From NCBI RefSeq assembly GCF_000175575.2, contig NZ_CP005986.1:813549-877548 (forward strand): a stretch of DNA of 64,000 bases, in the 5' to 3' direction. A program made the position numbers and the translations under genes. The notes under the pieces were generated by a model. The model made no database searches. It had not been told where the DNA came from and saw nothing but the letters and a program-made list of their open reading frames with translations. The DNA comes from Acidithiobacillus caldus ATCC 51756. Its GTDB lineage: Bacteria > Pseudomonadota > Gammaproteobacteria > Acidithiobacillales > Acidithiobacillaceae. This document shows, one piece after another, positions 29,264-35,142 of the stretch. Numbering within the stretch: position 1 is the first letter of the stretch; each line of letters opens with the position of its first letter.

Positions 29264-29304
29264 CTTAGAAAACGGTGGTTTTCATCCCAACAAGGAGCAG
29301 AATC

Positions 29305-30396
29305 GTGCAAGACAAGGCCTCGGAACCGACACAAAAGGATCTTTTCGCCCCCTGGCAGTTGGGGGCTTTTCGCTTGCGCAACCGCATCGGTCTTGCCCCC
29401 ATGACCCGCATGTCCGCGGAAAAAGACAGCATTCCGCGCCAGGACGTGCTGGATTTTTTGGTGCGGCGGGCGGAAAACGGGGTGGCTCTCATTACGACGG
29501 AGGCCATCGTCAGCGATTACGAGAGCGCCCAGGGCTATCCGGGGCAGGCGCGTCTTCTCACCCAACGGCAGATCAATGCCTGGGCCACGGTCAACGAGCG
29601 CATCCGCGCCGCCGGCAGTGTCTCCATCCTGCAGATTTTTCACTGCGGACGGGTGGCCTGGCCGGAGGTCAACCCCGCCCAGCGCACCATCGCCCCCAGC
29701 GCCATCGCGCCGCGCCAGAACAATCCTTTGACCCAGGCGCCCTATCCCATCCCCGACGCCATGTCCGCCTACGACATCCAGCACAGCATCCAAGGCTTCG
29801 TCGAGACCGTCAAAGGGGCCATGGCGGCGGGTTTCGATGGGGTAGAAATTCACGGCGCCCACGGCTACCTCATCAGCCAATTCTTGTCGAGCTATAGCAA
29901 TCGGCGGGAGGACGCTTACGGCGGCTCCCTCGACCAGCGTTTCCGTTACGCCCGCGAAGTGGTCGAAGCCGTGCGTCCCTGGGTGCCTCAGGATAAGTTG
30001 CTATTGTTCCGTATCTCCAATTGGGGTGTTGTGGATATGGACGTCTCCCTTTTTGCCGATGCCGAGGAATGGAAAGCGCTCATCGCCCACATCGATGCCT
30101 TGCCCATCGACGCCATCTCGGTATCCACCTACCGCTTTTCCGATGAGGCCTTTGGCAGCGGCATGAACATGGCCCAGCTGACCCGCACGGCGACGAAAAA
30201 ACCCATCTTCATTTGCGGGCAGATTTACGATCGCGATACGGCGGAAGCGGCCCTGGCCGATGCCGATATGGTCCTTTCGGGAAAGTCTTTGCTGCTCAAT
30301 CCCCACTGGGTGCAGGACATCCAAGCGCGCAAAGCGCTGCGCCCCTATCGCTCCGAGGAAGCGAACATCGCCTATACCAAGGAACCTCTACCGTGA
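29305..30396 (+). CDS. Old Yellow Enzyme family NADH:flavin oxidoreductase
   Basis: A 363-residue FMN TIM-barrel enzyme. Motifs in order are RNRIGLAPMTRM (FMN site), ILQIFHCGRVAWPE, the substrate-anion pair region GVEIHGAHGYLISQFLS (His-x-x-His), and YGGSLDQRFRYAREVV. Such enzymes reduce electrophilic alkenes, quinones or nitro compounds with NAD(P)H. The substrate cannot be told from sequence. GTG 29305 follows AAGGAG by eight bases. It converges on, and overlaps by nine bases, the GH3 gene on the other strand. Confidence 0.87.
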   Translation: MQDKASEPTQKDLFAPWQLGAFRLRNRIGLAPMTRMSAEKDSIPRQDVLDFLVRRAENGVALITTEAIVSDYESAQGYPGQARLLTQRQINAWATVNERIRAAGSVSILQIFHCGRVAWPEVNPAQRTIAPSAIAPRQNNPLTQAPYPIPDAMSAYDIQHSIQGFVETVKGAMAAGFDGVEIHGAHGYLISQFLSSYSNRREDAYGGSLDQRFRYAREVVEAVRPWVPQDKLLLFRISNWGVVDMDVSLFADAEEWKALIAHIDALPIDAISVSTYRFSDEAFGSGMNMAQLTRTATKKPIFICGQIYDRDTAEAALADADMVLSGKSLLLNPHWVQDIQARKALRPYRSEEANIAYTKEPLP

Positions 30397-31965
30397 AGGT
30401 TCGGTTCCGGCCGTCGGTCCCGTTGGCGCTGCGGCGCAAAGGCTCTCTCCCTTGGAGAGACGCTCCCAAATTTGGGCAAAACGCTGCGGGTCCGGCACCA
30501 CCCGAGGCACTTTGTTCTGGCCGCCCAGCCGGCCTTCGGTCTTGAGCCAGTGGGCGAAACTCCCCGGGGCGAGGACGTGCAGCTCGGGAGGGGTGAGTTG
30601 CAGGGCACGGTGCTCGTCGTAATCGGCATTGCGCCGGCGCAGTTCCTCGTCGAGGGTTTTCGTCATGAGCTCGAGGCGTGGCCGAAGTTCGGCCGAAGGC
30701 GGCAAGGGAGCGGCGGACTCCAGCAAAAAAACGTGATGACCAAGGCCAGGTCGGTCCTCGGCGAAGGACGGCCCGACCATCCACTCGGCGACGGGCATGC
30801 CGCCTGTGGCGGCGGCGCGCGCAACGGCCGCAGCCAACTCCTCGGGATGGAGATGCTCGCCGAAGACCGAGAGGTAATCCTGCAGGCGTCCGACGATGTG
30901 AATGCGCGGCGGTCGCCGCGTGAGGACGCGGACGACGTCGCCGATGAGGTAGGACCACAGGCCGGCGGCGGTCGTGAGGACTAAAGCGTAATCCTCGCCG
31001 CTGACGCAATCCCGCAGCCAGTGCCGACGCGGCCGTTCCCGACCGAGTTCCGCGACGGGCACGAATTCAAAAAAAGCGCCATGTTGCAGGTGCAGGCGCA
31101 GGCCTGCTTCGGGCTCGCCGTCGGCGCTGGCGATGAAGGCTTCACTGGCGGCGTAGACCTCCCGCAGTTCGGCCCGGGTGCCCGTGAGGAAAGGGGCGAA
31201 CAAAGGCCGGTAGGGGGCGAAGGGCACGCCGCCGTGCAGGAGCAGCTCAAGCCTTGGGAAAGGCGGGTTGCCGACCTGGGCGGCGACCGCCCGGAGGAGG
31301 AGCAGGAGCCAGCTCGGCGTCCCGGCCAAACGACGAATGTCGTGGCCAGGACTATCCGCCGCGAGGATGCGGAGCTTTGCTTCCCAGTCGCCAAGCAAGG
31401 CCAGCCGTCGGGGCGGATAGACAAAGGGGCGGGCCCACCGGGGTAGGGTGGCGGCGGCGATGCCGCTCAGATCCCCAGCCCGGATGCCGGGAGCGAGGGA
31501 GCGCAGATCCGTGCTTCCCCCCAAGAAAAAGAAGCGGCCACGCATTGGCCGCGCCCAAGGGCACGCGCGCTGATGCCACACCAAGGTATCCAATGCGGCG
31601 CGCCGCTGGGCCCGCAGCATCGTCCAACTCAAGGGCAGATACTTGCTGCGCCCACTGCTCGTTCCGGAACTCAGGGCGAAAAAAGGGATGCGGCCAGACC
31701 AGGTTTGGTTCTGGATCCGCGGAAATTCGGGTTCCCAATAGCTATGCCAGAAAGACTCATAATCGCGCAGGGGAACCCGGGACTGAAAATCGCGCACGCT
31801 CTGGATCCGCGCGAAGTCGTGGTCCTCGGCAAAACGGCAGGCACGCGCTTGACCTATGAGGTGCAGCAGGAGATGCTGCTGGCATTGCACCGGGTCCAGG
31901 GCATCGAGGTAACGGGCCCGACGCCGGGCGTAGTGTCGAAAGAACCTATCCGGCACTTCAGTCAT
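30388..31965 (-). CDS. GH3-family acyl-acid amido synthetase
   Basis: A 525-residue ANL-type adenylating enzyme of the GH3 (auxin-responsive) family. The ATP/Mg motif SSGTSSGRSKY is at residues 99-109, the second motif YAASEA at 271-276, the YLIGD motif at 339-343, and LSVFGE at 365-370 before the mobile C-terminal domain. Plant GH3 enzymes conjugate acyl acids such as indoleacetate or jasmonate to amino acids; bacterial members are poorly characterised, so the substrate is unknown. It is translationally coupled (ATGA) to an upstream acylase. Confidence 0.85.
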   Translation of the reverse strand: MTEVPDRFFRHYARRRARYLDALDPVQCQQHLLLHLIGQARACRFAEDHDFARIQSVRDFQSRVPLRDYESFWHSYWEPEFPRIQNQTWSGRIPFFALSSGTSSGRSKYLPLSWTMLRAQRRAALDTLVWHQRACPWARPMRGRFFFLGGSTDLRSLAPGIRAGDLSGIAAATLPRWARPFVYPPRRLALLGDWEAKLRILAADSPGHDIRRLAGTPSWLLLLLRAVAAQVGNPPFPRLELLLHGGVPFAPYRPLFAPFLTGTRAELREVYAASEAFIASADGEPEAGLRLHLQHGAFFEFVPVAELGRERPRRHWLRDCVSGEDYALVLTTAAGLWSYLIGDVVRVLTRRPPRIHIVGRLQDYLSVFGEHLHPEELAAAVARAAATGGMPVAEWMVGPSFAEDRPGLGHHVFLLESAAPLPPSAELRPRLELMTKTLDEELRRRNADYDEHRALQLTPPELHVLAPGSFAHWLKTEGRLGGQNKVPRVVPDPQRFAQIWERLSKGESLCAAAPTGPTAGTEPSR

Positions 31966-34181
31966 TGGCCTTTCAGTTCCAGGCGGTGAGGGAAGCGCTG
32001 GACGACCGTCTCACGCCGCAGAGGCATCTGTATATAACGTCCTTCGCGCCAGTGTGGGATCTGATCGGCAAACTGCGCGCTACCCAGCCAGCCGTCTTGA
32101 CCACCCAGGAGCACGCAGTGGTTGTCGTCCATATCTTCTAGGCGACAGAGGAAACGGGCCTGGGCGCCAAAGCTGGCGCGGTGCGGGCCGCGTACCAGCC
32201 CATGTGCCACCTTCATGAGCGTCTCGCGGGAACCACCGCTGGGCCATTGCTGGCCAGGCAAAAGGCGGCCCAGAAGGGGCAGCGATGCCAGCCAGTGAGC
32301 ACTGTGCATTCGGTGTAGGTCACCCCAGCGGGGATGGCGATGCCAGCGGCGCTGAGCCAGCGCCACAGCACGTGTCAGGAGTCGCCGCCGTTGGCGGGAC
32401 GGCAGAGCGCGAAGATCCTCGGGGAAAAAACGGCAGATGACCCCCCAATCCGATTCCCCTTTCCAGATCCCATCCACATGCCCAAGCTCTTGGAGTGTGG
32501 CTGCCAGGAGCAGCTCAAAAGCGCTGGCGCCGCGGCTTTCGACGGTATAATCCCCGGGCCAGTGTTGCAGAGCATGGCGTAGGTCGTCCGCGCGCGGCAG
32601 ACCGTTCAGCTGTTCCGCCAGAAATTGCGCGAGCGCCCGCGCCCTGGAGGAGTGGACATCCCGTTGCCAGGCCATGAGCTGCGCTTTGGTGAGGGGTCCC
32701 TGACGGTCGCGAAGCAGTTGACGCAGGCGCTCCGCCCGATCGGGATTGCTGAAAAAGAGCCCGATGAAGTCGGCACCGGCGGGCTCGTCGTTGGCCGAGA
32801 CCGCGATGTCCGCCGCCGCCGGACTGCCCATGACGGTGGAGTAGAAAGCACCCGCTTCGGTGCGCTGCACCCGCACACGGTCGGGGCATTGGTGCGGGTT
32901 GGCCGTCCAGCGCATCCGTGGGTCCCTTGGATCGCGCAGGAGGTCGGGATAGGCACTGGCGCGCCGTGGCAGGGTCGCCGCGTAGACGTGCTCCACGCCG
33001 CCTTGGCGATCCGCTGCCAGAAAATTGAGACCGGGCACGGACCAGGTCGCCAGGATCCGGCGCAGACTCCCTGCCTCCTTGGCCTCCATCAGTTCCAGCA
33101 GGGGCGTGAACTCATCGCTGGGACGGTGGCCCATCCAGGCGAGAGCCACTTTCTCCTGGCCTTTGGGCCAGAGGCGGGTGTCGCTGACCAGCGGCCCTAC
33201 AGTAGTCCAGCGTCGCCAGACGTTTTTGGCGGGGAAGAAGCGTCGGCTGAGGCGAACGCGTTCTTTCCCGCAGATATCGTCGTCCTTCACGGCAAAGAGA
33301 TCGCTGCTCAAGGAGCGCAGATTGGTCCCGCCCCAGGCCAGATCTCGGTTACGACCGATGCTGATGAAGGGGATACCTACGGGAGCAAGACCGACGGCGT
33401 CCATGCCCGGGGCATGGAGACCCAGGAGCAGCCAGGCATTGGGCAGGGCGAAACCCAGGTGCGGATCGCTGGCCAGCCAGGTGCTGCCCTGCGCACCCTC
33501 GGTCACGGCCAGCGCGTTGCTGCCACTCCGGGCTACGGTGAAAAGAGAGGCCAATTCGGCCCTGGTGGTCGTATTCGTGGCACCATGCGTGGATCCCGCC
33601 AGCAAGCGCCGCTGCCAACGACGTTGCCAGTGGGCTTGTCGACGCTGCCGCAGAAAACGCCCGAAAAGCAGCCAGTGGACGTCGGCCGCGATGACCCGGC
33701 TCATGCGGACGATGTCCAGCGGCGCCCAGGGGCGACGTTGTAAACCCAGCCAGCGAAACTCCGGTGGTCGCCGATCTTGTGCCGCAGCGTAGGCATTGAG
33801 GCCGGTGACGAAGGACTCCAGCCAGTGCCGGGTGCGGTCGGGCAGCAAGGCGAGGATCTCCGGGGCAGCCCGGCCGGGATCCAGGCAGCGGATGAGTTCG
33901 TCCACAGGGGTGAGCAGCGGGCCCAGGAGTTCGCCCAGGCGACCCTCGGCCAGGTAACGCAGGAGGTAGAGCTGCGTTTCCCGCAGATGGCATTGCACGA
34001 GGCCGATGGCAAGGGCCAGATCCCCATCGTTCTGGGCATAGATCTGGGGGATCTGATGTTCATCCCAGAAGATCTCCACCTCGGCCAGCAGAGGGAGACC
34101 ATGGCGTGGAAACCGCTCCAGTCTGGTCCCCAGGGCGATGGGTTCTCTCCTGCCGAGAAAGGGCATACGTCGCCAAACCAT
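31962..34181 (-). CDS. Penicillin acylase-type Ntn-hydrolase (peptidase S45)
   Basis: A 739-residue self-processing amidase. The nucleophile Ser221 lies in RSGSNALAV, so autocleavage between Gly220 and Ser221 should give a small alpha chain and a large beta chain. Family motifs WDEHQIPQIYAQ near residue 40, ASDPHLGFALPN and NRDLAWGGTN are present. The family includes penicillin G acylase and the AHL acylase PvdQ. No signal peptide is visible from ATG 34181 (preceded by AAGGAG), so unlike most relatives it may be cytoplasmic. Its TGA overlaps the ATG of the GH3 gene. Confidence 0.88.
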   Translation of the reverse strand: MVWRRMPFLGRREPIALGTRLERFPRHGLPLLAEVEIFWDEHQIPQIYAQNDGDLALAIGLVQCHLRETQLYLLRYLAEGRLGELLGPLLTPVDELIRCLDPGRAAPEILALLPDRTRHWLESFVTGLNAYAAAQDRRPPEFRWLGLQRRPWAPLDIVRMSRVIAADVHWLLFGRFLRQRRQAHWQRRWQRRLLAGSTHGATNTTTRAELASLFTVARSGSNALAVTEGAQGSTWLASDPHLGFALPNAWLLLGLHAPGMDAVGLAPVGIPFISIGRNRDLAWGGTNLRSLSSDLFAVKDDDICGKERVRLSRRFFPAKNVWRRWTTVGPLVSDTRLWPKGQEKVALAWMGHRPSDEFTPLLELMEAKEAGSLRRILATWSVPGLNFLAADRQGGVEHVYAATLPRRASAYPDLLRDPRDPRMRWTANPHQCPDRVRVQRTEAGAFYSTVMGSPAAADIAVSANDEPAGADFIGLFFSNPDRAERLRQLLRDRQGPLTKAQLMAWQRDVHSSRARALAQFLAEQLNGLPRADDLRHALQHWPGDYTVESRGASAFELLLAATLQELGHVDGIWKGESDWGVICRFFPEDLRALPSRQRRRLLTRAVALAQRRWHRHPRWGDLHRMHSAHWLASLPLLGRLLPGQQWPSGGSRETLMKVAHGLVRGPHRASFGAQARFLCRLEDMDDNHCVLLGGQDGWLGSAQFADQIPHWREGRYIQMPLRRETVVQRFPHRLELKGQ

Positions 34182-34222
34182 TGGGACTCCTTCCCCCGGG
34201 GTGTCGTGCGCTCTTGAAAGGC

Positions 34223-34251
34223 ATGGTAGCTGTCGTCCCGTGTACGAGCAA
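34223..34251 (-). promoter_or_regulatory. Promoter of the acylase-GH3 operon
   Basis: On the minus strand TTGCTC (34246-34251) and TACCAT (34223-34228) are separated by 17 bases, 42 bases before the acylase ATG. The divergent outer-membrane gene begins at 34462; the 280 bases between the two starts hold this promoter and no gene. Confidence 0.5.
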
Positions 34252-34461
34252 GGACAGGGGTGCCGGTTCACTGCGATTGCTGCCCGGGATCCAGCCTAAA
34301 AAACCCGATTATCATCAAAACCTGTGAAAACTTCGGATCTTATTGGGAGCGATGGTCAATGCCAGCATGCCTTTTTGGTCACGGAACTCGTGCCAAGTTC
34401 AGGAGGTCAAAGTCGGCACAGGTAAACTCCTGCATATCGAGACGAAATAGAGGAGGCAGTA

Positions 34462-35142
34462 ATGAAGAGATTACTTGCAGCGGGCGTTTCTGCGAGCCTT
34501 GCCGTTCTGGTTTCTGGTGCTGCATGGGCCACACCCTTATCTCAGACACTGAACAGTATCGGAGTTTATGGAAACGTCACGGGAGTGAGTAACGATGGCG
34601 GCAGCACGACCGGCGGTATCGGTTTTCGCGCTTCCGTTTATCGCGATAACTTTCTGTTTTCTGCCAATTATAGGCACGATTTCGGAGCGGCCTTCCAGAA
34701 TTCCTCTGGCGGTGATACCAACGCAGTCAATGTCAAGGGCGCTTATCTTGTACCCTTGAACGAAGATTTTGCCGTTGGTCCTTACTTGTCCTATCAGTAC
34801 ACCCGTTTTACCCTGAATGACCCGGTCGGAGCCTTTCACTACACCAACAACGCCATCGGCGGGGGAGGGTATGCAGCCTTTCACCAAGGCCCGCTGACCG
34901 TCACGGGAAATGTCGGGTATCTCTCCGGAGTGTCTGCCACGTACAGCTATACCAATGGTGGGTATCGTCAAGCCTTCACCAGTGCGAACGGCTCCGCCAA
35001 CGTGCTCCAACTGGGTATGCAGGCGGATTACCAGGTATCCGGACCCTGGTACGCCTTCACCGGTTTCAAGTGGGATCGCTATATGCACCACGGCGATTTC
35101 AATCTGCTCCAGGGAAATGTTGGGCTCGGTTACAGCTTCTGA
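34462..35142 (+). CDS. Small outer-membrane beta-barrel protein
   Basis: A 226-residue protein with a clear signal peptide (cleavage after AAWA, about residue 23). It is rich in alternating aromatic/polar strands (for example FLFSANYRHDFG, VGPYLSYQYTRF, WYAFTGFKWDRY) and ends in GLGYSF, the C-terminal Phe signal for Bam-mediated insertion. It looks like an 8- to 10-stranded barrel of the OmpA/OmpW size class. No specific family was recognised. A GGAGG site precedes ATG 34462, and a strong terminator follows, so it is a single-gene unit. Confidence 0.8.
   Translation: MKRLLAAGVSASLAVLVSGAAWATPLSQTLNSIGVYGNVTGVSNDGGSTTGGIGFRASVYRDNFLFSANYRHDFGAAFQNSSGGDTNAVNVKGAYLVPLNEDFAVGPYLSYQYTRFTLNDPVGAFHYTNNAIGGGGYAAFHQGPLTVTGNVGYLSGVSATYSYTNGGYRQAFTSANGSANVLQLGMQADYQVSGPWYAFTGFKWDRYMHHGDFNLLQGNVGLGYSF

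Follow-up and report, generated by a model that had tools for sequence, protein, structure and literature searches.

To our knowledge, bacterial GH3 enzymes of the OlsH type acquired a first tested function only in 2025. Specifically, OlsH of Singulisphaera acidiphila was shown in that year to make N-acyl-ornithine from a free fatty acid, ornithine, ATP and Mg, and the gene beside it encodes OlsI, an O-acyltransferase despite its annotation as a hydrolase (PMC12493201). The OlsH product is absent in living E. coli, for which the authors suggest a shortage of free fatty acid, and the roles of homologues outside the planctomycetes are left open. The tree in that report takes in GH3 proteins of Defluviicoccus and of the Acetobacteraceae type, and the word "acylase" appears nowhere in its main text (PMC12493201). 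Plant GH3 synthetases such as JAR1 and GH3-1 share domain architecture and ATP motifs with the protein described here, but they are distant in sequence and their acyl substrates are hormones, for example auxin and jasmonate. Among enzymes of the opposite chemistry, the closest described system is D-succinylase, for which we know of no GH3 partner. PvdQ and MacQ are also related, as exported S45 Ntn acylases that take fatty acyl chains off amides.

Here we describe a locus in a 64,000-nucleotide stretch of Acidithiobacillus caldus ATCC 51756 DNA (the window) that resembles OlsH/OlsI in having a GH3-type first enzyme, matching ATP motifs and an adjacent gene for a partner of hydrolase fold. However, the alpha/beta-hydrolase OlsI partner by which an OlsH operon is recognized is here an S45 Ntn acylase, the GH3 protein scores under the OlsH cut-off, and OlsB-type genes are also present in the genome. 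The novelty lies in the genetic partnership between an Ntn acylase and a GH3 amide synthetase of bacteria. A search of open-licence papers returned no description of a GH3 and penicillin-acylase-type pair, in line with a preliminary description of this DNA that had called the pair undescribed, and no lipid work on Acidithiobacillus, ornithine lipids included.

A two-gene unit on the minus strand

The features of the locus are as follows, in window coordinates.

30388..31965, minus strand: GH3-family acyl-acid amido synthetase, 525 aa, second gene (Pfam PF03321, PF23571, PF23572; NCBIfam OlsH, 494 bits)
30937..30966, minus strand: GH3 nucleotide motif III, AGLWSYLIGD
31141..31158, minus strand: GH3 nucleotide motif II, VYAASE
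31642..31671, minus strand: GH3 nucleotide motif I, SSGTSSGRSK; Ser100 is the counterpart of the essential Ser115 of OlsH
31962..31965, minus strand: ATGA overlap of the acylase stop TGA and the GH3 start ATG, read from the sequence
31962..34181, minus strand: S45 (penicillin-amidase family) Ntn acylase, 739 aa, first gene (PF01804, 426 bits)
32790..32792, minus strand: Asn464 of the SAN motif, a likely oxyanion-hole residue; invariant in 17 homologues
33459..33461, minus strand: His241 of the DPHL motif; invariant in 17 homologues
33519..33521, minus strand: codon of catalytic Ser221, with predicted self-cleavage at Gly220/Ser221; G220-S221-N222 invariant in 17 homologues
33525..33590, minus strand: putative excised spacer, residues 198-219 (pLDDT below 50)
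34187..34192, minus strand: AAGGAG ribosome-binding site of the acylase, read from the sequence, with a 5-nt spacer to ATG 34181

The overlap of the acylase TGA with the GH3 ATG was noticed in the preliminary description and is real, and we infer that it couples translation of the two genes. The acylase most likely starts at ATG 34181, because the AAGGAG site precedes this codon at a 5-nt spacing, although the longest open frame reaches a GTG at 34271. The gene end given previously, 34251, thus lies upstream of the best start, whereas the earlier numbering of Ser221, and its placement at a self-cleavage site, is correct for the 739-residue protein that begins at ATG 34181. Because the downstream neighbour (29275-30396, an OYE-family oxidoreductase) is on the opposite strand and the upstream neighbour (34462-35142) is divergent from the acylase, the unit comprises two genes. 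A single promoter ahead of both had also been proposed, but a consensus scan for sigma-70-like promoters found none, against 0.8 expected, and does not support the proposal as it was made. Each protein is the sole member of its family detected in the genome. The GC and GC3 contents of the pair resemble those of neighbouring genes, and composition is therefore uninformative on recent transfer.

All three domains of the synthetase (N, M and C, at 66, 53 and 62.8 bits) pass the Pfam cut-off of 23.6. The ATP-binding motifs claimed earlier are all present, and Ser100 and Ser274 are invariant among six homologues. The best curated match is the OlsH model NF052613, at 494.2 bits and below the equivalog cut-off of 620. 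Twelve other GH3 proteins paired with an acylase score 482-610 bits against this model, and two clades of unpaired GH3 proteins score lower, at 447 and 361 bits. The enzyme is thus best regarded as a near relative of OlsH that falls below the curated cut-off, a position that points to amino lipids; the preliminary description had overlooked OlsH, the nearest GH3 enzyme of known function. The same genome carries an OlsB-type protein and an overlapping OlsA-like acyltransferase frame (L029:6159-7879), which together probably make up a full OlsBA pathway for ornithine lipids. Each of the 12 other pair-carrying genomes tested also has OlsB-type domains. Because of these OlsB-type domains, the GH3 enzyme is not needed as the sole route to ornithine lipids and, near as it is to OlsH, cannot be classed as OlsH. 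On the aminolipid proposal favoured below, the amino acid it uses would probably be ornithine or another basic one. It may be that this amino acid differs from the one used by OlsH, or that the enzyme serves salvage rather than sole synthesis.

The acylase matches PF01804 at 426.5 bits over profile positions 1-673 of 675. The GSN triad, the DPHL histidine and the SAN asparagine, each invariant in the 17 homologues, show rare exceptions in a wider set. We take His241 to occupy the position of the B-chain histidine in S45 enzymes of the cephalosporin acylase type. In the AlphaFold model (pTM 0.87), confidence is low in the residues immediately preceding Ser221, which is what a self-excised spacer would be expected to give. 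By both sequence and fold, the nearest solved structure is D-succinylase from Cupriavidus sp. (PDB 7EBY, 7EA4; TM-score 0.75), an N-acyl amino acid deacylase that shares the S45 fold but is only about 20% identical and acts on N-succinyl-D-amino acids. Cephalosporin acylases, MacQ and PvdQ follow as structural relatives. Identity as PvdQ was considered and rejected, as the window acylase reaches only 25.7 bits on the PvdQ model NF051460, against a cut-off of 950.

The S45 family includes acyl-homoserine lactone acylases, and the structural kinship to MacQ and PvdQ would suit the suggestion, made in the preliminary description, that the pair recycles a quorum signal, with the acylase degrading acyl-homoserine lactones and the GH3 enzyme remaking or remodelling them. 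We consider this very improbable. D-succinylase is nearer to the acylase than either MacQ or PvdQ. Furthermore, a search with the LuxI family PF00765, the one acyl-homoserine lactone synthase family used, detected no such protein in the window's genome or in 10 of 12 other genomes with the pair, and one of the hits in the remaining two (2 of 13 overall) carries an internal stop. Quorum signalling is therefore rejected as a general role on the LuxI search.

Distribution and co-inheritance of the pair

Scanning of named genomes with a GH3 alignment yielded 37 related loci, and in 22 of these the acylase gene lies upstream of the GH3 gene, abutting or overlapping it in nearly all cases. Junction length could be measured for 20 adjacent pairs and ranges from -8 to +19 nt, with the 4-nt overlap in ten; at one locus counted as paired (L038) the acylase lies 2.5 kb away. 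Paired loci occur in Acidithiobacillus, Acetobacteraceae and other Rhodospirillales, Defluviicoccus, Acuticoccus and Desulfofustis. Outside Geobacter, six or seven of the 37 GH3 loci are without the acylase, and L047, which is counted as unpaired, stops at a contig edge. The genes remain adjacent as sequences diverge: identities are 71% (GH3) and 73% (acylase) within the genus, about 50% and 43% in two further genera of the same family, and 46% and 43-44% in another family of the class.

A similar picture emerges from 398 evenly drawn Pseudomonadota genomes, the window's own among them. The full-length GH3 subfamily is present in four (above 600 bits; next best 69), and the acylase is adjacent in all four. 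The acylase subfamily is present in five (above 700 bits; next best 348), four of which have the GH3 gene. The probability of this overlap by chance is about 5e-9, or 4e-7 when the window's genome is removed, before adjacency is counted. Thus, the pairing is far above chance. Moreover, the paired GH3 proteins share one region of the GH3 tree (4 label changes, versus 12 in shuffles), and the GH3 tree is mirrored by that of the acylase (r = 0.91; 0 of 2000 permutations). In many bacteria the two genes have been passed on as one unit. The preliminary description had proposed a search for the pairing in other genomes and would have given up the idea if none was conserved; given the 22 of 37 loci, the 4 of 4 genomes in the draw and the mirrored trees, that ground for abandoning it has not materialized.

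The gene neighbourhoods around the pair vary among the genera examined, and clustering of the neighbours revealed no third conserved gene that stood out. This pattern bears on the idea that the pair serves scavenging or detoxification, whereby the acylase liberates acids bound in N-acyl amides and the GH3 enzyme, acting on different substrates, captures toxic free acids by conjugating them to amino acids. GH3 enzymes do conjugate free acids, and free organic acids are harmful to acidophiles. However, no conserved transporter or catabolic gene accompanies the pair, which also occurs in Defluviicoccus and Desulfofustis, lineages with no known acidophily, and we judge such a function quite unlikely.

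Several individual genomes deserve mention. One other Acidithiobacillaceae genome (G022, L024:9516-10443) carries both genes as broken fragments, side by side, and genomes G018 and G025 carry C-terminal fragments of GH3. Genome G105 has an acylase of the paired subfamily (L135:8601-10649; 731 bits), and no GH3 gene was found in it. In the closed genome of Indioceanicola profundi, an intact pair resides on a 1.18-Mb plasmid-class replicon (NZ_CP030127.1; L099:3573-7500), and both genes are absent from the gene table used.

Export signal of the acylase

A signal peptide is a usual, though not strict, feature of S45 precursors, and the window acylase lacks one: its N-terminus (MVWRRMPFLGRREPIALGTRLERFP) has no hydrophobic run, and a check of other frames and upstream starts revealed no hidden signal. 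Its congener likewise has no hydrophobic N-terminus. Among the 21 acylases with a readable N-terminus, eight carry a lipobox at the same aligned position (LPGC, LSAC, TASC or LGGC), and a ninth, at locus L136, has a clear LGGC lipobox signal. In two lineages the lipobox cysteine is replaced, giving LPGF in A. ferruginosus and A. sulfuriphilus and LSAR in one Defluviicoccus. Several lipobox-free acylases keep a hydrophobic N-terminal segment, and a membrane anchor is therefore possible in these proteins.

The lipobox pattern requires at least three changes on the unrooted acylase tree, and the export signal seems to have been lost more than once. The simplest reading of this unrooted tree is that the ancestral acylase was an exported lipoprotein whose signal disappeared in several lines. 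Given the lipobox signal of at least nine homologous partners, the window lineage most plausibly lost an exported form, and its cytoplasmic acylase seems to be derived. The original observation of an acylase without a signal peptide therefore holds for the window protein but not for the family, and a pair confined to the cytoplasm is not the rule.

Lipobox-bearing partners would be outside the cytoplasm, where they could take part in a masking scheme like that of PvdQ, itself a structural relative of the acylase. Here the GH3 enzyme would attach a fatty acyl group to a cytoplasmic amino compound, and the acylase would strip off the chain once the product had crossed the membrane. This arrangement is a poor fit to a window acylase without a signal, the clustered neighbours include no recurring exporter or peptide synthetase, and the low PvdQ score given above is also unfavourable. 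We regard it as decidedly unlikely.

Candidate roles of the pair and related GH3 loci

We tentatively favour, at somewhat less than an even chance, the possibility that the pair constitutes a module for N-acyl amino acids (amino lipids), with GH3 forming the amide and the acylase cutting amides of this kind, so that acyl chains are released or exchanged. This proposal builds on the gene anatomy, the conserved pairing, the co-inheritance, the conserved catalytic residues and the lipobox pattern as observed, and from these we infer substrates, direction of flow and compartments. The GH3 enzyme would activate a free fatty acid with ATP and couple it to an amino acid. The co-translated acylase, after self-processing at Gly220/Ser221, would hydrolyse an N-acyl amide of the same class as the GH3 product, and could thereby either free acyl chains for re-use by GH3 or trim its product, with aminolipid acyl exchange as the outcome. 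In the likely ancestral layout, an acylase anchored as a lipoprotein outside the cytoplasm would keep synthesis and cleavage apart, whereas the window's genus no longer has the export signal, and its two enzymes would be expected to share the cytoplasm.

The dependence of OlsH on free fatty acid provides a reason for a partner that releases fatty acids. Two similarities are consistent with the aminolipid proposal, namely the closer approach of the paired GH3 proteins to OlsH than of the two unpaired clades, and the resemblance of the acylase to D-succinylase, a deacylase of N-acyl amino acids. On the other side, a shared substrate with both enzymes in the cytoplasm would threaten a futile cycle, genome G105 keeps the acylase without GH3, and the six or seven GH3 loci noted above do without the acylase. 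The preliminary idea of coupled amide-making and amide-breaking enzymes is thus retained in part: a GH3 relative of OlsH and an S45 acylase do form a conserved pair, but the quorum role and a generally cytoplasmic design fall away.

For the non-planctomycete OlsH homologues, a partner that is inherited with GH3, is probably coupled to it in translation and has the opposite chemistry narrows the range of roles to consider. The pair would also reveal how cells escape futile cycling after the cleaving enzyme loses its export signal.

In the Geobacter clade (L057-L062 and L066), a protein of about 350 aa is encoded directly upstream of GH3 (for example, L060:7804-8922). This protein has no Pfam or NCBIfam match, and contains a GVSFG nucleophile elbow and a conserved HASLIFHH motif. 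Its AlphaFold model matches alpha/beta hydrolases, but these fold matches are no more than suggestive because the model is of low confidence (pLDDT 49.5). The layout is the one seen for OlsI beside OlsH.

Given such partners, the S45 enzyme could instead be an acyltransferase occupying the slot of OlsI, in which an acyl chain is loaded onto Ser221 and passed to the N-acyl amino acid made by GH3, yielding a two-chain lipid through a further two-gene aminolipid pathway. The precedent of OlsI, a presumed hydrolase that proved to be an O-acyltransferase, is favourable to this alternative, as are the elbow, conserved His and tentative fold of the Geobacter-clade protein and the ability of a penicillin V acylase to move fatty acyl groups onto amino acids. 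However, the catalytic residues do not depart from those of S45 enzymes that hydrolyse in the ordinary way, acyl-ACP and acyl-CoA donors would be out of reach for a lipoprotein acylase outside the cytoplasm, and OlsBA-type genes are present anyway. We consider transfer of this kind unlikely. A broader and speculative version, which we credit with a small but appreciable chance, is that GH3 and S45 constitute an undescribed two-enzyme aminolipid pathway, with the Ntn acylase serving as an acyltransferase or acyl-exchange enzyme on the N-acyl amino acid from GH3. At least three switches between exported and non-exported forms would then mean that relatives carry out the same reactions either on opposite sides of the membrane or both within the cytoplasm.

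Other GH3 loci have different surroundings. At two Roseobacter-group loci (L048:8902-13763 and L053:8785-13536), GH3 without an acylase is followed by a 351-aa protein of unknown function, and the opposite strand encodes an SDR and an enzyme resembling BioF or serine palmitoyltransferase; each looks like another amino- or sphingolipid cluster. Finally, in an Azospirillaceae MAG (L043:5050-8716), GH3 lies between a fatty-acid desaturase and an epimerase, again without the acylase, and no terminal branch in the GH3 tree is longer than that of this protein.
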